Source of the DNA: Fibrobacterota bacterium
Lineage (GTDB): Bacteria > Fibrobacterota > Fibrobacteria > UBA11236
Assembly (NCBI GenBank): GCA_028287505.1
Contig: JAQBPN010000070.1
Coordinates: 67,671 to 115,364 of the forward strand
DNA: 47,694 bases
Reading direction: 5' to 3'
Of the stretch, positions 3,770 to 11,446 are shown in pieces. The stretch's first letter is position 1; each line of letters begins with the position of its first letter. The notes beneath the pieces were generated by a model that was not told the origin of the DNA, ran no database searches, and saw only the letters and a program-made list of their open reading frames with translations. The position numbers were made by a program, and so were the translations under genes.

Positions 3770-4972
3770 TCAGCCCTTGGCCAGAAGCAGCCTGGCCAAC
3801 AGCGGCGGATAGCGTTTGCGCACCCAGCCTTCGTCCGGCTTGTCCTTGCCGGTGGCGGAAGCCTTGAGGTCGGCGTCCAGCATGAACAGATAGGGGTACC
3901 ATTCCTGATGCAAAACGCCTTTCCAATCCCAGATCAGGGTCTTCAGGGCCTTATGCAGGGCCGTGACGCGGGCAGGCGCCAGATCCTTGGGACCGGGACG
4001 GTAGAAAGGCGAAGCCAGATAGGGGGCCACGGCACGGAAGGCCTTGGGAAGCGCATACCTGTCCATGACTTCGCGCCAGGCCGCCTGGGCCGGCTTGCCT
4101 TCCCGGAAAGCCGCCAGCAGGTCCAACAAGAGGCGGTCCGTCATGGGCAATCCCGTGGGATTCAAAAGCACGCCGCGCGTCAGGCGCCAGATGTCGCGCG
4201 TGCGGCCGTGGTACGGTCCCAGGAAAATCTTGTTGGGGCAATAGTCGTTGGCGTAAAGGTTGTCCCAAAGCAGGACATTGCCTTGGAAGATCCGCGAAAG
4301 GCCGGCCAGCGCCTTCCCATCCAGGCGTTCGGCGATGATGCGCGGGCCCGTCCACAGCACCGTGACCTCCTTGGGCATTTTCGCGGCCAGGTCCAGAAGA
4401 TAAGGGTCCCGTTCCACCGGTCCCGAGGCGAATTGATCGGTATAGACGGTCGGGCAGAACCAAAGCCGGCAATCCGGGCCCGTGACCTTGAGATCCGCAA
4501 GCAGCCTGGCGAGCAGAAGGCCGTGCGCCTCGCCCAAGGTGCGGAAAGACTTGGCGCAATTCGCGGGAAGCACCGGAGGGATATCGTCCATCAGCAGCGC
4601 CAGAGTGCGGCAGCCCAGTTTCTGGAAGTCCCGGAATTTGCTGAGAAGCACGCGGTAATCGTCGGCCGCCAGATAGTCGAAGGAAAGGCCCGGAGCCATG
4701 CCGGGAACCACATCCACTCCGCGCTTGGCGCCCCGGACCGCCAAATCCCGGAAACGCTTGCGCCATTCGGCCGGGTAGCGGATCCGCCAGTCCCGGCGAT
4801 GGAGGGAGTCTTCCTTGGGGGCGTATAGATAGGCCCCATCGCATGCGTGATCGAAGCGTTTGTCGCAAAGATGGTCGACAAGGGAGGTTCTTTCCGCCCA
4901 ACCGAAAAGCCGGCCGTAATACCCTTCGATGTATCCCCATACCGCGGGGCGGTCGGCTTCCGGTTTCGCCAT
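3770..4972 (-). CDS. GH84 family beta-N-acetylglucosaminidase (O-GlcNAcase-like)
   Basis: A 400-residue protein covering just the GH84 catalytic domain. GH84 enzymes remove N-acetylglucosamine by substrate-assisted catalysis. Visible family features are GYIEGYYG (residues 13-20), the catalytic Asp-Asp pair in LLMDDIP (129-130) and LWDNLYANDY followed by LGPYHGR (235-257), very close to human OGA. There is no signal peptide, carbohydrate-binding module or HAT-like domain, so it probably works in the cytoplasm on muropeptide, chitin-derived or glycoprotein GlcNAc. Start chosen for GGGAGG upstream of the ATG. A receiver-domain gene lies 148 bp upstream on the same strand. Confidence 0.9.
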   Translation of the reverse strand: MAKPEADRPAVWGYIEGYYGRLFGWAERTSLVDHLCDKRFDHACDGAYLYAPKEDSLHRRDWRIRYPAEWRKRFRDLAVRGAKRGVDVVPGMAPGLSFDYLAADDYRVLLSKFRDFQKLGCRTLALLMDDIPPVLPANCAKSFRTLGEAHGLLLARLLADLKVTGPDCRLWFCPTVYTDQFASGPVERDPYLLDLAAKMPKEVTVLWTGPRIIAERLDGKALAGLSRIFQGNVLLWDNLYANDYCPNKIFLGPYHGRTRDIWRLTRGVLLNPTGLPMTDRLLLDLLAAFREGKPAQAAWREVMDRYALPKAFRAVAPYLASPFYRPGPKDLAPARVTALHKALKTLIWDWKGVLHQEWYPYLFMLDADLKASATGKDKPDEGWVRKRYPPLLARLLLAKG

Positions 4973-5120: not shown

Positions 5121-5543
5121 TTAAGCCTGGACGGTCACCGCGTCCAGGATGGAACGGATCTTTTGGATCAATACCTTGGGGGTGAAGGGCTTGGGCAGGA
5201 AGGAAACCTTCGCTTGGTGGATGCCGAATTGGACGATGGCGTCGTCGGGAAACCCGGAAATATACAGCACCTTCATGTCCGGCCGGATAGGAGAGATCTG
5301 CTTCACCAACTCGCTGCCGCTCATCGGGCTCATCACCACATCGGTAAGCAAAAGATGGATCTTGCCCTCGAATTCGCCGGCCACTTTGAGCGCTTGCGGC
5401 CCGCTGGAGGCTTCCAAAACGTTGTATCCCTCGATGGCGAGAATGGCGCTAACCAATTCCCGGATGTAGTCCTCATCGTCCACCAGTAGGATGGTTTCCA
5501 GGGTGTTGGCCACATCGCTCTGTCTTGCTTTGATAATCGCCAT
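5121..5543 (-). CDS. Single-domain response regulator (receiver)
   Basis: About 140 residues forming one CheY-like receiver. It shows the acidic pair in LLVDDED, the phospho-acceptor Asp in LLLTDVV, the Thr/Ser position in LYISGF and the conserved Lys in LPKPFTP. No output domain follows, so it must act through a partner protein or in a phosphorelay. I used the ATG at 5543 because the receiver begins soon after; the open frame extends to 5780, and an ATG near 5576 is an alternative. It is transcribed away from the HigBA-like module and could share its divergent control region. No histidine kinase is in the window. Confidence 0.82.
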   Translation of the reverse strand: MAIIKARQSDVANTLETILLVDDEDYIRELVSAILAIEGYNVLEASSGPQALKVAGEFEGKIHLLLTDVVMSPMSGSELVKQISPIRPDMKVLYISGFPDDAIVQFGIHQAKVSFLPKPFTPKVLIQKIRSILDAVTVQA

Positions 5544-5896
5544 CCCTTCACGGAGCGCACGGTGCGCGTAACCCATCGGTCCGGACCTTGGCGGCCCGGG
5601 CATCTTGCCGATATTTCTTAAATAAAATTCTTCTCCGGCGGAATACAAATTCCGTATTTGCGGCCGGCCCGGGCCGGAAAAAGCGGTTTCGGAACTTTTG
5701 AGCCCAAGGTTCCCAAAACCCGCGGGCTCCTGAACCGCCCGATTCTCCAACCGGGACTCCGGTCCCTTAGGAGAGGCCATCCCGCTTGCCGCAAACGGAA
5801 CCTTGGGCTTTCCCCGCCCGCACCCCCCAAAAAAGCATTGACCCGTTTACCGGGAATCGTATTTCAAGGGAATGCCAACCGCTTACCAACGGTTGT

Positions 5897-5902
5897 TATA
5901 TT
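5897..5902 (+). promoter_or_regulatory. Putative -10 box of the higBA-like operon
   Basis: TATATT in the context GTTGTTATATTTAC matches the TTTGCTAnnTT pattern seen before other genes here. The 17-bp palindrome begins 7 nt downstream, at the expected transcription start, which suits repression. Confidence 0.5.
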
Positions 5903-5909
5903 TACATTA

Positions 5910-5926
5910 TTAACCCTAAGGGTTAA
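5910..5926. promoter_or_regulatory. 17-bp palindromic operator, copy 1
   Basis: TTAACCCTAAGGGTTAA is a perfect palindrome of two 8-bp arms around one base. It lies between the -10 box and the toxin ATG. A matching palindrome occurs at 7840-7856, so it is probably the binding site of the HigA-like antitoxin. Confidence 0.7.
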
Positions 5927-5938
5927 CAAAATAAATAT

Positions 5939-6280
5939 ATGAAAATCGTATTCGCAAACGAAGACTTGAGGAATGAGTGCAACAACCAGGACCTCCTGGT
6001 CAAACGCTACGGCGCGGAGCTCGCCAGACTGCTGAGACAAAGGCTGGACGAGCTTTTCAACGCGGAAGTGCTGGAGGACATGCGGTCCCTGCCCCACGTT
6101 TCCATATCGGGTTCCGTCCAGGGCGGCCCTGATCTGTCCCTGGATTTGGGGGGCCCTTACCGCCTGGTTTTCCGCCCCTACCCCCACGCCAAATTCAGTA
6201 ATGGCGGAATGGATTGGAATAAGATAGATTCGATTTTTATTTTGGGATTGTTCAAACAAAATGCCGAACCGAAGCCATAA
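5939..6280 (+). CDS. HigB-like toxin (RelE/ParE fold mRNA interferase)
   Basis: A 113-residue protein. The pattern CNNQDLLVKRYGAELARLLR, then LRQRLDEL, MRSLPHV and DLGGPYRLVF is typical of HigB/host-inhibition toxins, which cut mRNA on the ribosome. It precedes its antitoxin, the usual higBA order, and overlaps it by 20 nt. The C-terminal tail is somewhat longer than in E. coli-type HigB. The 17-bp palindrome just upstream suggests autoregulation. The region is AT-richer than its surroundings, as is common for mobile toxin modules. Cytoplasmic. Confidence 0.85.
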   Translation: MKIVFANEDLRNECNNQDLLVKRYGAELARLLRQRLDELFNAEVLEDMRSLPHVSISGSVQGGPDLSLDLGGPYRLVFRPYPHAKFSNGGMDWNKIDSIFILGLFKQNAEPKP

Positions 6281-7349
6281 CCAGTACTACCCCGACGTCG
6301 TTTCCCCTCCGGGAGAAACCCTGCGGGAAACCCTCGAGGCCCTTGGCATGTCCCAGGTGGAGCTTGCCGAGCGTATGGGGCGTCCCAAGAAGACCATCAA
6401 CGAAATCATCAAAGGCAAAGCCGCCCTTACTCCGGACACGGCATTGCAGCTGGAACGCGTGCTGGGCATCTCGGCGGGATTCTGGAACAATCGCGATTAC
6501 CACTTCCGCGAGTACCAGGCCGGGCGGCAGGAACGCGAGCGCCTGCGCCACAAAGTGGACTGGCTGGATGAAATGCCCGTGCGCGACATGGTCAAGCTGG
6601 GCTGGATCGTCGCCTACGCGGACAAGGTAAGGCAATTGCAGGAGGTCCTCAACTTTTTCGGGGTAGCCTCGCCGGAAGTCTGGAAGCGCATCTGGTGCGG
6701 TCCCAAAATCGCCTTCCGCCGGTCCAAGGCCTTCCGGAACGATCCGGGTCTCCTGGCCGCCTGGCTGCGGGTCGGTGAAATCCAGGCCCGCAGCCTGGAT
6801 TGCGGGGACTTTCACCCGGCCCGCTTCGCCAAGGCCCTGGAACAGGTCCGCAAGCTGACCCTGAAACCGCCCACCAAATACGCCAAGGAACTCACCCGCT
6901 TGTGCGCGGAGGCCGGCGTGGCCCTGGTGTTCCTTCCCGAGCCGCCCCGCTTGAGCATCAGCGGAGCCACCCGATGGCTCACCCCCGCCAAGGCATTGAT
7001 GCAGATCAGCTTGCGGTATACCACCGACGATCAGTTCTGGCTGACCTTTTTCCACGAAGCCGGGCACATCCTGTTGCATGGAAAGCGCGATGTCTTCCTG
7101 GAAACCAACGGCCATCCCCGTAGCAAGGAAGAAGCGGCCGATCAATTCGCCATGCAGTACCTTCTCCCCAAAGAAGCCTTGGACCGCTTCCTGGCCGCGG
7201 GACCGCCCACCAGAGACGCGGTGAAGCGTTTCGCGGAAAAGATAGAGTTGGCCCCCGGGGTGCTGGTGGGCCTGCTGCAGCATCGCGGCGCCGTGGCCGA
7301 TTCGCAATTCAACGATTTGAAAAAGCTTTTCAAGCTCAGGACTGCATGA
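6261..7349 (+). CDS. HigA-like antitoxin fused to an ImmA/IrrE metallopeptidase
   Basis: A 362-residue two-domain protein. Residues 18-75 form an XRE helix-turn-helix (SQVELAERMGRPKKTINEII) of HigA type. Residues about 200-310 form an ImmA/IrrE (COG2856) zinc peptidase with HEAGH at 265-269 and the acidic third-ligand region EEAADQFA near 290. The first domain would neutralise the toxin and bind the operator; the second may cleave the protein itself or a partner when a signal arrives. Such fusions are known. Its stop overlaps the start of the next receiver gene (ATGA), tying a signalling protein to the module. Confidence 0.88.
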   Translation: MPNRSHNQYYPDVVSPPGETLRETLEALGMSQVELAERMGRPKKTINEIIKGKAALTPDTALQLERVLGISAGFWNNRDYHFREYQAGRQERERLRHKVDWLDEMPVRDMVKLGWIVAYADKVRQLQEVLNFFGVASPEVWKRIWCGPKIAFRRSKAFRNDPGLLAAWLRVGEIQARSLDCGDFHPARFAKALEQVRKLTLKPPTKYAKELTRLCAEAGVALVFLPEPPRLSISGATRWLTPAKALMQISLRYTTDDQFWLTFFHEAGHILLHGKRDVFLETNGHPRSKEEAADQFAMQYLLPKEALDRFLAAGPPTRDAVKRFAEKIELAPGVLVGLLQHRGAVADSQFNDLKKLFKLRTA

Positions 7350-7789
7350 GCGGACCCGTGCGCATCCTCAAACCCAAGCCGCGGCCCGCCCAGCCCCGCC
7401 GGCATCCGGCGCGGGAGACCATCCTGCTGGTGGATGACGAAAAGATCATGTGCAACTATCTGGCCGAGCTCCTCGGCAACGAAGGGTACCGCGTGCTGGT
7501 GGCCGGCGACGGTGAGGAGGCCCTCGTCAAGAGCGAAAAGTACGGTGCGGTCATCCACCTCCTCATCACCGATGTCATGATGCCCGTGATGAACGGCAAG
7601 GAACTGGCCGACCGGTTGTGCGCGCTCCGGCCCGAAATCAAGGTCCTCTTCATTTCAGGTTACCGGCGTACCGACGTTTGGCCGCTCGACGCCTGCGAAG
7701 ACCAGACCGACTGGCTGCCGAAACCCTTCACCGCTCCCATGTTCCACGCCAAGGTCCGGGCTATCCTGGGCTCGGTCGCGGAGCCCTGA
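7346..7789 (+). CDS. Single-domain response regulator coupled to the HigBA-like module
   Basis: A 147-residue CheY-like receiver after an Arg/Pro-rich leader of about 25 residues. Key residues are visible: LLVDDEK, the phospho-Asp in LLITDVMMP, the Ser in LFISGY and the Lys in LPKPFTA. There is no output domain. Its ATG overlaps the antitoxin stop by 4 nt, so it should be made in proportion to the antitoxin. A role as a sensor input to the toxin module is an inference from this coupling; it could also be a bystander. Confidence 0.87.
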   Translation: MSGPVRILKPKPRPAQPRRHPARETILLVDDEKIMCNYLAELLGNEGYRVLVAGDGEEALVKSEKYGAVIHLLITDVMMPVMNGKELADRLCALRPEIKVLFISGYRRTDVWPLDACEDQTDWLPKPFTAPMFHAKVRAILGSVAEP

Positions 7790-7817
7790 TCCCCGGAGAA
7801 GAGCGGATGATGCGTGC

Positions 7818-7823
7818 TATTTC
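7818..7823 (+). promoter_or_regulatory. Putative -10 box before the third receiver
   Basis: TATTTC in GTGCTATTTCC resembles the hcp promoter GTGCTATATTTCC at 37275. The palindromic operator follows 16 nt downstream. Weak on its own. Confidence 0.35.
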
Positions 7824-7839
7824 CGTCCTGTTTTTTTTA

Positions 7840-7856
7840 TTAACCTTTAAGGTTAA
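7840..7856. promoter_or_regulatory. 17-bp palindromic operator, copy 2
   Basis: TTAACCTTTAAGGTTAA is a perfect palindrome with 8-bp arms and one central base, differing from copy 1 at only three bases. Its last base is the A of the receiver start codon. A protein bound here would block both transcription and, at DNA level, the start region. Confidence 0.7.
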
Positions 7857-8248
7857 TGCAAATGCAACCTAGCAGAACCATCCTCCTGGTGGAGGATGAG
7901 GGACCGGTCCGCAGACTGATCGCCCGCATCCTCGAGCTGGCGAAATACAACATCCTGGAAGCGATCCATGGGGAGGATGCGCTTTCCGTGAGCGATGCCT
8001 TTTCCGGGGAAATCCATCTGCTGGTCACGGACATCATGATGCCGGTAATGAACGGCCAGGAACTCGCGACCAGGCTATCCGCCCTGCGGCCCGGCCTGGG
8101 AATCCTGTTCATCAGCGGATATCCCGGCAAGCACATACCGGAAGGCCTGGAAAACAGGGCCAAGGTGGAATACCTGGCCAAACCCTTCAAAGCGGATGTG
8201 TTGTTGGCGAAGGTGAAGACACTGCTTTTCGAAAGCGGCTTCGCATAG
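7856..8248 (+). CDS. Single-domain response regulator under the shared operator
   Basis: A receiver of 130 residues: LLVEDEG, phospho-Asp in LLVTDIMMP, LFISGY and LAKPFKA. It has no output domain. Two ATGs are possible (7856 or 7862). The first overlaps the palindrome, and neither has a good ribosome site, so translation may be leaderless or weak. It is 66 bp after the preceding receiver, to which it is clearly related (shared TD(V/I)MMPVMNG). The duplicate operator suggests control by the same antitoxin. It converges on the pspC-like gene. Confidence 0.86.
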   Translation: MQMQPSRTILLVEDEGPVRRLIARILELAKYNILEAIHGEDALSVSDAFSGEIHLLVTDIMMPVMNGQELATRLSALRPGLGILFISGYPGKHIPEGLENRAKVEYLAKPFKADVLLAKVKTLLFESGFA

Positions 8249-8551: not shown

Positions 8552-9433
8552 TCAGGTCCCGCGCCCAACGTCCAATTCTTTGAGACCCAACATGTATCCG
8601 CCGGCCACGTCGAGATTGACGCCGGTAATGTACCCGGCCTTGTCCCCCGCCAGGAATTCCACCGCGTTGCAAATGTCTTCGCAGCCACCCAGGCGGCCCA
8701 AGGGAATATAGTCTCCGGGACGTTTGGGCAGTTCCACGCTGTTGGCGAGAATGCCGGGGGAAACCATGTTGACGCGGATCTTGCGCGGCCCCAGCGCCTG
8801 GGCCAGGGACTTGGTCAGCACCAGCAGACCGGTTTTGGAAATCAGGTAGGCCGTATTGTGGGTGGAAGCCGTAAGACTGCCGACCCCGGAATACCCGATG
8901 TTGACGATGGCGCCGCCCGCCGCGGGGAACAAATCCAGGGTCTGGTTGATCAAATGGTAGACGCCCACCAGGTTGGTCCGCAGGGTGGTTTCGAAATCCT
9001 CCACCGGGTAATCGAGCAGATCTCCGGTGCGGTAGATCCCGACATTGTTGACCAGCACGTCCAGGCGCCCCGATTCCTTCTTCAGCCTGGCCGCCATGGC
9101 GGTGATATCGCGCTTGGAAGCCATATCGCCTTTGATCAAAGCGCCGCGCCCGCCCCGCGAGACGATCTCCGCCAGCACCGATTCCGCTTCCGGCCGCGAG
9201 GTGAGGTAATGGACCCAGGTGAAATATCCGGCGGACCCCAGCCGGATGGCCAGTTCCCGGCCCAGGCGTTTGGCGGACCCGGTAACGAGGGCCACCGCGT
9301 CTTTGCCTCCGGCATTGCGGGTTTCCGTGGCGGCGAAGGCCGAGGTCCTGGACGCGGCCGCTGCGCGCATGCGCCGGCGCGAAGGCTCCGCCTCCTTTTT
9401 CTTCCCGGCGTTTTTCTTCCCGGCGGCCTTCAT
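8552..9433 (-). CDS. Short-chain reductase, FolM/pteridine reductase-like
   Basis: A 293-residue SDR. After a basic Ala/Lys-rich extension of about 42 residues come the cofactor motif TGSAKRLGREL (51-61), NNVG (129-132) and the catalytic Tyr-x3-Lys (196-200). An Arg in the TGxxxR loop is typical of FolM and PTR1, which reduce dihydrobiopterin, dihydromonapterin or dihydrofolate with NADPH. The ATG overlaps the folB stop by 4 nt, which supports a pterin substrate. The start at 9433 is preferred over the longer frame to 9604, which lies within folB. A 3-oxoacyl-ACP reductase role is possible but less likely here. Confidence 0.8.
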   Translation of the reverse strand: MKAAGKKNAGKKKEAEPSRRRMRAAAASRTSAFAATETRNAGGKDAVALVTGSAKRLGRELAIRLGSAGYFTWVHYLTSRPEAESVLAEIVSRGGRGALIKGDMASKRDITAMAARLKKESGRLDVLVNNVGIYRTGDLLDYPVEDFETTLRTNLVGVYHLINQTLDLFPAAGGAIVNIGYSGVGSLTASTHNTAYLISKTGLLVLTKSLAQALGPRKIRVNMVSPGILANSVELPKRPGDYIPLGRLGGCEDICNAVEFLAGDKAGYITGVNLDVAGGYMLGLKELDVGRGT

Positions 9434-9789
9434 CGATGCACCGTGAGTTCGGAGGTGACCGAGGCGTAACGCGCGGCCGGGAGGGCCGCGGGTTTTTTGA
9501 TGGTGACGCGGCATTGGCGGATTTCCGGAAACGCGTCGGTGATCAGCACGCAGGCCCTTTCCGCCAGCGTCTCGATCAATTGGAACTTCTCCCGCTGCAT
9601 CCATTCTTCCAGCATCGCCGCAAGACGGGTGTAGTCGAGGGTATGGTCGATCTGGTCCGTACGGGCGGCTTCGCTGAAATCGAACTCCAACCGCACGTCC
9701 ACGAACAGATCCTGTTCCACTTTGCGCTCATGCTTGTAAACGCCCACGATGCAGCGGATGCGCAAGTCGTCGATGTTCAGGACTCCCAT
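9430..9789 (-). CDS. folB: Dihydroneopterin aldolase
   Basis: A 119-residue protein of usual FolB length. It begins IDDLRIRCIVGVYKHERKVE, with DYTRLAAMLEEW, FQLIETLAERAC (the Glu that binds the pterin) and VTIKKPAAL with the catalytic Lys. FolB converts dihydroneopterin to 6-hydroxymethyl-dihydropterin and glycolaldehyde in folate synthesis. The ATG overlaps the stop of the HAD-Nudix gene (TGATG), and the stop overlaps the reductase start, so the three proteins are translationally coupled. Cytoplasmic. Confidence 0.92.
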   Translation of the reverse strand: MGVLNIDDLRIRCIVGVYKHERKVEQDLFVDVRLEFDFSEAARTDQIDHTLDYTRLAAMLEEWMQREKFQLIETLAERACVLITDAFPEIRQCRVTIKKPAALPAARYASVTSELTVHR

Positions 9790-10847
9790 CAGGCTTCTCC
9801 CACGTTGCGGCCTTGCGCCAGAATATGTTCTATCAGGACCCGGGTCGGACCGTTCAACGGCATTTCCAAAGCCCGTTTCGGATCGGTCCAGACATAAGCG
9901 TCGGATTCATGGTTCAGTTTCACGGGCGGGCGCAGGCCCGGCGCCTTGGCGGTGTAGTTCACCAGGATGTAATGCCTGGGCCGGTAGAATTCCGGATGTT
10001 CCACGCAATCCTGGTTCAATACGAAAGCCAGTCCGCCGATTTCCAGGCCGGTCTCTTCCTTCGCCTCACGGATGAAGGCTTTTTCCATGGTCTCGCCGTA
10101 ATCGATCTTGCCTCCCGGAACGCCGTACAAGCCCGACCATTTGCGGGTCCGCACCAGCAGCACGTCGCCGGCCTGATCGTAAATGAGCCCGCCCACGGTG
10201 GCCACGGGAAAATGCCGGCTTTCCGCGCAAGCCATCTTGTCCAGATACCGGAGCACGTCCTTGAACGCCGGAAAGCAGATTTCCGCTCCGGCTTCCGCCA
10301 GGGCCGCGGCGGAGGAATAACCGTAGGCCACCGCCATGGGCTCGATGCCCGCGGCCAAAGCCGCCTTCATGTCATGGGGCGTATCGCCGATGGCGGCGGT
10401 TTCATCCTGCGCCATCCCGCGGGTCCGCAGCAGATCCGGAAGCGCCAGGGTTTTGTCTTCCACCGATCCGAGCACGACCCGGAAACAATCCCTCAACTCC
10501 ATCAGCTCCAGGATTTCTTCCAGCATGGCCTGATCCAGGGTCGACATCAGGTAGAGATCATGCCGGCACTTGAGGCAGGCCAGACCTTCGCGCACTCCCG
10601 GCCAGAGCTTCACGGCCGCGGGATATTGCTTCCGGCATAGATCGGAAAAAACGGCTTCGATTTCCTCCCAAGAGGTTCCCGGACAATATTTGCGGTAGAA
10701 CCCGATGGCGGGCAAAGTGAATTCGCGCTTGTAGGTTTCGAAATCCACGGAAGGATGCCCGAAGGAACGGATCGCCTGATCGGTCAGACGCCAGGTAAGC
10801 TCCTGGTCGTCGGCCAGCGTGCCGGCCCAGTCGAAAACGATGTTCAT
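9789..10847 (-). CDS. HAD hydrolase-Nudix hydrolase fusion
   Basis: A 352-residue bifunctional protein. Residues 1-210 are a HAD hydrolase with nucleophile Asp6 in FDWAGTLAD, Ser/Thr motif MSTLDQ (101-106), Lys132 and the acidic motif GDTPHD (154-159). Residues 215-350 are a Nudix domain with a complete box from Gly246 to Leu268 (GKIDYGE...REAKEETGL). Placed directly before folB, the pair could remove pyrophosphate from dihydroneopterin triphosphate and then the last phosphate, the two steps before FolB. A caution: the residue two after the nucleophile is Ala, as in phosphonatases, not the Asp usual in phosphatases. The start at 10847 overlaps the upstream stop by 4 nt. Confidence 0.85.
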   Translation of the reverse strand: MNIVFDWAGTLADDQELTWRLTDQAIRSFGHPSVDFETYKREFTLPAIGFYRKYCPGTSWEEIEAVFSDLCRKQYPAAVKLWPGVREGLACLKCRHDLYLMSTLDQAMLEEILELMELRDCFRVVLGSVEDKTLALPDLLRTRGMAQDETAAIGDTPHDMKAALAAGIEPMAVAYGYSSAAALAEAGAEICFPAFKDVLRYLDKMACAESRHFPVATVGGLIYDQAGDVLLVRTRKWSGLYGVPGGKIDYGETMEKAFIREAKEETGLEIGGLAFVLNQDCVEHPEFYRPRHYILVNYTAKAPGLRPPVKLNHESDAYVWTDPKRALEMPLNGPTRVLIEHILAQGRNVGEA

Positions 10848-11446
10848 TCGCGCTGGGAAAGGAGGTTCAAGGCGTTCTCCATCCGGTACGGCAGGGAACG
10901 GGACTCCAACAACCGTTGCAGGTAGATGGGAGGCAGGTGCAGGCAGCCGCATAGAAAGAGCGAGAAGTTCTCCCGATCCATATCGGTGCGGACGCCTTCC
11001 ATCACATCGCGGATGCCGCGGCTTTCCTCCGGTCCCAGTACGGTGACCATTTTCAGGATGGTGGCTTCCAATTCGGGAAGCCTGTCCACGGCTACCGGGT
11101 CCGCGGGAGACTCATCTCCGTATGCGACGCACGACGCGGTCAGATAGGGCTTGGATTCCCGATCGAGCTTTTCCAGGTAAACGCGCTGACGCCCCTTGGG
11201 CCGGATAAGCTGGAAATCCCCCTGCCTGTCTATCGCATCAAACTCCACCAAAGTCCCGATACGGTAGGGCGTGGCCGTCCCCCCTACTTCGTCTCCGGAA
11301 CTGATCATGGAAACCACGAAAAAAGGCTTATCCGCGATATCCTTGAGCATTTGGATATAGCGATCCTCAAAGACACGCAAGGGGATCTTGTGTCCGGGAA
11401 AGCAGGGATTGCGCAATGGAAAAACGGGATAGCTCCCAGGTATCAT
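10844..11446 (-). CDS. LON N-terminal-like substrate-binding domain protein
   Basis: A 200-residue protein that is just the LON substrate-binding domain. It opens with FPLRNPCFPGHKIPLRVFED, the PUA-like fold of Lon N-termini, and ends with a helical part (LHLPPIYLQRLLES). There is no AAA+ or protease domain. Stand-alone members occur widely with unknown function. It is the first gene of the operon that leads into the HAD-Nudix and folB genes. A TATATT box ends only 6 nt before the ATG, so the mRNA is probably leaderless. Confidence 0.87.
   Translation of the reverse strand: MIPGSYPVFPLRNPCFPGHKIPLRVFEDRYIQMLKDIADKPFFVVSMISSGDEVGGTATPYRIGTLVEFDAIDRQGDFQLIRPKGRQRVYLEKLDRESKPYLTASCVAYGDESPADPVAVDRLPELEATILKMVTVLGPEESRGIRDVMEGVRTDMDRENFSLFLCGCLHLPPIYLQRLLESRSLPYRMENALNLLSQRE

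Follow-up and report, generated by a model that had tools for sequence, protein, structure and literature searches.

The route from dihydroneopterin triphosphate to the aldolase FolB runs through two phosphate-removing steps, in which a Nudix enzyme yields the monophosphate and a phosphatase then yields dihydroneopterin (PMC1971073). The Nudix FolQ is established at the first of these steps in Lactococcus lactis and plants, whereas most bacteria have no enzyme assigned to it, and removal of the last phosphate is ascribed to a non-specific phosphatase (PMC1971073). In Parachlamydia UWE25, FolQ and FolB are both flagged as fused, apparently in one chain; that entry marks no HAD or other phosphatase, and a HAD-Nudix joint is not mentioned in it (PMC1971073, Table 2).

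The locus described here lies in a 47,694-nucleotide stretch of DNA, called the window below, from a Fibrobacterota genome of 6.07 Mb that is 98.7% complete. It encodes a HAD-Nudix fusion that is probably a bifunctional dihydroneopterin triphosphate diphosphatase and dihydroneopterin monophosphate phosphatase, with activity, substrates and reaction order inferred. To our knowledge, bacteria are not generally known to have an enzyme dedicated to the dephosphorylation of dihydroneopterin monophosphate. Like FolQ of L. lactis and plants and the E. coli DHNTPase NudB, the Nudix domain of the fusion is clustered with folate genes and would act at the same pathway step (PMC1971073, PMC5526541). Unlike either, it bears an N-terminal HAD domain, and by the NCBIfam cut-off it is not a NudB ortholog. 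The features are:

10844-11446, minus strand: LON substrate-binding-domain protein, first in the overlapping run (PF02190, 4.1e-21; synteny)
9789-10847, minus strand: HAD-Nudix fusion, 352 amino acids, ATG at 10847 (translation; adjacency of fusion and folB conserved across phyla)
10239-10847, minus strand: HAD domain of the fusion, residues 1-203, C1-cap type with a phosphoglycolate-phosphatase-like fold (Pfam HAD_2; AlphaFold2; VIA-align; motifs)
9813-10214, minus strand: Nudix domain of the fusion, residues 212-345 (Pfam NUDIX; box regular expression)
9430-9789, minus strand: folB, dihydroneopterin aldolase, 119 amino acids (PF02152, 3.5e-32; TIGR00525 above cut-off; catalytic Glu, Tyr and Lys found as E21, Y53, E73 and K98/K99-P)
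8552-9433, minus strand: SDR reductase, FolM/PTR1-like (adh_short_C2, 4.9e-44; TGSAKRLG, matching TGX3RXG, and YLISK)

The four genes follow each other on the minus strand in the order LON-domain protein, fusion, folB and SDR, with overlaps of 4, 1 and 4 bases. The LON-domain gene and the fusion share positions 10844-10847, the stop of the fusion and the start of folB share a single base (TGATG), and folB and the SDR gene share positions 9430-9433. The span 9430-10847 consists of two minus-strand genes, the fusion and folB, and the initial annotation was right to place a HAD-Nudix fusion directly before folB, coupled by overlap to folB and a FolM-like reductase. FolB passes the folB equivalog model TIGR00525 (92.2 vs a cut-off of 72.15). 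The SDR resembles the FolM and PTR1 pteridine reductases in its pteridine reductase motif, TGX3RXG, which starts at residue 51, and its best NCBIfam match is the TmpR dihydropteridine reductase (3.8e-55); it differs in missing the cut-off of the TmpR dihydropteridine/dihydrofolate reductase equivalog (NF012208, 187 bits vs 325). FolE was not found in a search of this genome. FolE2, FolK and DHFR are present, so that the substrate of the proposed steps is made and their product used.

Several features surround this run. The LON-domain gene that heads it is kept upstream of the fusion throughout the genus, and only in the genus. At 3770-4972 the window encodes a protein starting WGYIEGYYGRLF, glucosaminidase-like by eye, which comes after the SDR gene in a sister genus as well (L010, L011 and L012), so that synteny reaches past the folate genes. 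Three short, receiver-domain-like response regulators are clustered near the operon end (5121-8248) and flank a gene whose product looks HTH-like at its N-terminus.

Both halves of the fusion are recognised by Pfam, with HAD_2 at residues 3-173 (6.7e-17) and NUDIX at residues 216-334 (6.8e-19). The complete Nudix box that had been read from the sequence was confirmed: the pattern Gx5Ex7REUxEExGU is met at residues 246-268, GKIDYGETMEKAFIREAKEETGL, and none of 20,000 shuffles gave one. An AlphaFold2 model built from a 23-row alignment has a mean pLDDT of 92.3 and a pTM of 0.78. Residues 1-206 of the model align by VIA-align to C1-cap HAD phosphatases with Z scores of about 19-25, the match to 3mc1 reaching 25.3. 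HAD entries filled the VIA-align listing, and the Nudix half was matched with Foldseek instead, where it resembles Nudix hydrolases (1vc8, 6.5e-10). The best general model matches of the fusion are phosphoglycolate phosphatase and MutT-type, and the equivalog models of these kinds all score far under their cut-offs. Orthology to phosphoglycolate phosphatase was rejected (NF009695, 56.5 bits vs 225), as was orthology of the Nudix half to NudB, given that it falls far under the NudB model (NF006961, 22.9 bits vs 103). The component domains are of known kinds.

The fusion is present in all six genomes of the window's genus, and the order LON, fusion, folB and SDR is intact in five. In the sixth, a contig end cuts the fusion before folB, and the folB of that genome starts another contig. 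The fusions of the other genomes are 62-76% identical and hold the same position, which rules out an artefact of assembly. The taxa with full-length fusions are Fibrobacterota, Gammaproteobacteria, Planctomycetota, Verrucomicrobiota and a Nitrospirota MAG. The genome scan, which covered 84,980 species, used only two peptide patterns, both from the Fibrobacterota alignment, and its list of taxa is therefore a lower bound. Outside Fibrobacterota it gave 20 loci at which the fusion is full-length or nearly so (Gammaproteobacteria, Planctomycetota, Verrucomicrobiota, Nitrospirota and unclassified), one of which, L046, is broken by a run of N. At 19 of the 20, folB lies directly downstream on the same strand, usually 4-60 bp from the Nudix domain; the lone exception, L057, has its folB elsewhere in the genome. 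In one Verrucomicrobiota order, the fusion model was matched in 173 of 196 genomes, about 150 at full length, and folB is next in line at each of the 30 best loci. The fusion is rare in the rest of that phylum (four of 195 genomes drawn from it, one being the query genome). In Planctomycetota, a full fusion was found in 5 of 294 genomes, always with folB directly downstream (5/5). Had the fusion been found mostly away from folate genes, its proposed role would have been refuted, and these counts show the opposite. Two control sets came from the same searches, 32 loci with a weakly related Nudix and 27 with a HAD only, and folB was found at none of either.

Co-occurrence was assessed in the same Verrucomicrobiota order with 20 genomes that carry the fusion and 20 that lack it, picked before the search for FolB. 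FolB was found in 20/20 of the former and 4/20 of the latter (Fisher 1.5e-7, uncorrected for relatedness), and it lies within 400 bp downstream of the fusion in 18 of the 20 carriers. Of the four others, from the set without the fusion, two are fragments at contig ends. In one genome, G179, folB is on another contig.

Two further observations concern the neighbourhood of the fusion in other taxa. Contigs binned to an archaeal (Poseidoniaceae) MAG bear a Verrucomicrobiota-type fusion with folB (L038 and L039) and are probably mis-binned. In four gammaproteobacterial loci (L025, L027, L029 and L030), one gene family lies directly before, or overlaps, the start of the fusion; Pfam, applied to L025 only, assigns it to Vut_1, the queuosine-precursor/vitamin transporter type, which hints at a pterin or deazaguanine link.

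The halves also occur apart. Four Planctomycetota genomes (L202-L205) encode a Nudix of the fusion type and FolB in a single unbroken reading frame that lacks a HAD domain, apparently the same arrangement as in Parachlamydia UWE25. Another Planctomycetota locus, L201, shows the reverse: a HAD protein with the motif DWSGTL is encoded by itself, 45 bp before folB, and Nudix is missing. In a HAD tree this protein groups inside the fusion clade, so that the Nudix domain was probably lost there. In a sister genus within Fibrobacterota, the Nudix gene precedes folB and the SDR gene without any HAD in three genomes (L010-L012) and with a degenerate HAD in the fourth (L009). One MAG of the Parachlamydiales (L062) has a HAD gene of the unrelated Cof type that overlaps a Nudix gene, followed by FolB and an SDR. 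By these Rosetta ARRANGEMENTS, HAD, Nudix and FolB behave like separable components of a single pathway, and their order matches that of the known chemistry, in which Nudix, phosphatase and FolB act in turn (PMC1971073). The HAD half is degenerate in L009, L043 and family f5 (L013 and L014) and absent from L010-L012 and L202-L205, so that some lineages manage without it; this is the chief doubt about the bifunctional reading. In the simplest view, a general phosphatase can replace the HAD half where it was lost, as is assumed for E. coli. Although there are no enzyme activity data, the adjacency, the co-occurrence and the occurrence of either half beside folB support, well beyond the window, the earlier suggestion that the fusion may fill the missing folate steps.

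Related Nudix genes are found in other surroundings too. The f5 proteins of Fibrobacterota (L013, L014, L049 and L050) carry an N-terminal pseudo-HAD that has lost the catalytic motifs; their genes adjoin tadA-like and DUF502-like genes, so named by sequence appearance, and folB lies elsewhere in the genome. In L051-L056 and L058-L068 except L062, mostly from Deinococci, Trueperaceae and Thermaceae, a Nudix of the same subfamily stands directly before an SDR gene. No folB was found near these Nudix-SDR loci; it lies elsewhere or was not found. The one SDR inspected among them, that of L052, has TGX3GXG rather than the pteridine reductase motif, and several of the loci have a CDP-alcohol phosphatidyltransferase just upstream.

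The aspartate two residues after the nucleophile is the near-universal acid/base of HAD phosphatases and matters in canonical members. The fusion shares with the C1-cap HAD phosphatases (phosphoglycolate phosphatase, AlnB and the beta-phosphoglucomutase group) the fold, the nucleophile, the Lys and motif IV. It differs from them in lacking the +2 Asp, in having an invariant Asp at +8 and in the Nudix domain joined behind. Across 85 scored copies, which include duplicates of the same gene from different searches, the residues of motifs I-IV (D6 as nucleophile, S102, K132, D155 and D159) are invariant. The +2 position is Ser in 73 copies, Ala in 11, Cys in one and Asp in none, and the canonical DxD criterion of HAD phosphatases is not met. 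The Ala at +2 reported earlier (DWAGT, Ala8) is indeed there and fixed in 6/6 genomes of the genus; it recurs in L057. At +8, all 85 copies have Asp (D14).

This pattern extends to HAD-only relatives. Wherever +2 is Asp (25 proteins), +8 is Ser, Pro or Thr, and wherever +2 is Asn or Ser (eight proteins), +8 is always Asp (Fisher 7e-8, uncorrected for relatedness). L201 and a fragment of the interrupted fusion L046 are two of these eight. The HAD tree places the group with Asn at +2 as the sister of the fusion clade (support 94-98), so that the association reflects few independent events. This sister group consists of standalone HADs (L016-L019, L145 and L149) with the motif D[WF]NGT[LI]xDD, in which +2 is Asn and +8 is Asp. 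In beta-phosphoglucomutase, D10 is the general acid/base and T16 is a core-cap hinge residue whose rearrangement accompanies the engagement of D10 (PMC9171722, PMC6713671). Motif I aligns without gaps, D8/D10/D15/T16 of that enzyme corresponding to D6/A8/D13/D14 of the fusion, which places the +8 Asp beside the site of action of the +2 carboxylate. The hinge residue Asp14, between core and cap, may stand in for the missing acid/base, an inference from sequence without activity data on the role of this residue.

The proposed function rests on direct observations: the domains of the protein, the order and co-occurrence of the genes, the Rosetta-type arrangements and the residues that are conserved. 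FolE2 would make 7,8-dihydroneopterin triphosphate, from which the Nudix domain would strip pyrophosphate to leave the monophosphate. The HAD domain would then take the last phosphate, and FolB, encoded by the next, overlapping gene, would cleave the resulting 7,8-dihydroneopterin to 6-hydroxymethyl-dihydropterin for FolK. The HAD reaction is predicted to go through a phospho-enzyme at Asp6, with Mg held by Asp6 and Asp155/159, Ser102 and Lys132 contacting the phosphate, and the invariant Asp14 taking over from the usual +2 acid/base, which is replaced by Ala or Ser. That the Nudix part is a folate enzyme, taken by itself, is very probable, although its activity is inferred. The further idea that there is a dedicated dihydroneopterin monophosphate phosphatase, which forms a HAD family of its own (DW[SA]GTLx[DN]D), is joined to Nudix for both steps and has the +8 Asp replacing the one at +2, is evenly poised between right and wrong.

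It is possible, but rather unlikely, that the role in folate synthesis is confined to the Nudix half, as an analogue of FolQ, with the HAD half merely carried along, serving in regulation or pterin binding or catalysing some other reaction, and a non-specific phosphatase finishing the job. This would agree with the accepted view of the last step (PMC1971073), with the replaced +2 Asp and with the several relatives that keep Nudix and folB while the HAD is lost or degenerate. It does not account for the conservation of the HAD nucleophile, Ser102, Lys132 and Asp155/159 in every scored copy across phyla, for L201, which retains a fusion-type HAD beside folB without any Nudix, or for the unrelated HAD that fills the same place in Parachlamydiales. 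A different product is a good deal less likely still: the cluster could make tetrahydromonapterin instead of, or besides, folate, such that the fusion dephosphorylates the triphosphate of dihydroneopterin or dihydromonapterin, FolB acts as an epimerase and the SDR reduces the product. An SDR with TGX3RXG follows folB in Fibrobacterota, an SDR follows it in Gammaproteobacteria and Planctomycetota, and the genome has a DHFR, so that this activity need not come from the SDR alone. However, no such SDR lies beside the fusion-folB pair in the Verrucomicrobiota order, folate needs FolB as well, and the two phosphate steps are the same chemistry in both cases. With an SDR next to folB, tetrahydromonapterin could still be an additional product.

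Little weight is given to a house-cleaning enzyme, a nucleotide diphosphatase joined to a nucleotidase or phosphoglycolate-type phosphatase, that sits beside folB by chance or for expression; the best general matches point that way, but none of those models comes near its cut-off, and the adjacency, the co-occurrence and the fusion of Nudix to FolB hold across phyla. The least credible reading, to the point of being nearly dismissed, is a phosphonatase-type enzyme that cleaves a C-P bond. The initial annotation had raised it as a caution because phosphonatases also have Ala at +2; the fusion does resemble phosphonoacetaldehyde hydrolase (PhnX) in the Ala of the window's genus and of L057 and in the shared fold (1rql, Z 19.9 by VIA-align). 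Unlike PhnX, most other members of the family have Ser at this position, which makes up 73 of the 85 copies, and there is no conserved cap Lys: none is among the invariant columns of residues 14-80, the cap, which makes the mechanism unlikely. The score to TIGR01422 is 20.2 bits vs a cut-off of 220. The caution was not borne out, and the phosphonatase reading was rejected.

No HAD-Nudix fusion in folate synthesis was found described in the open-licence literature searched, which is weak evidence of absence; within it, both the fusion and a folate-linked HAD family with a possibly moved acid/base appear to be undescribed. With the bifunctional reading preferred, the fusion family is a concrete, conserved candidate for both phosphate steps in several phyla and in most of one Verrucomicrobiota order, and a single purified protein makes the open dihydroneopterin monophosphate step testable. 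The HAD clade, with another residue in place of the supposedly essential Asp at +2 and an Asp at the hinge, would also provide a clean case for the moving of HAD acid/base chemistry.
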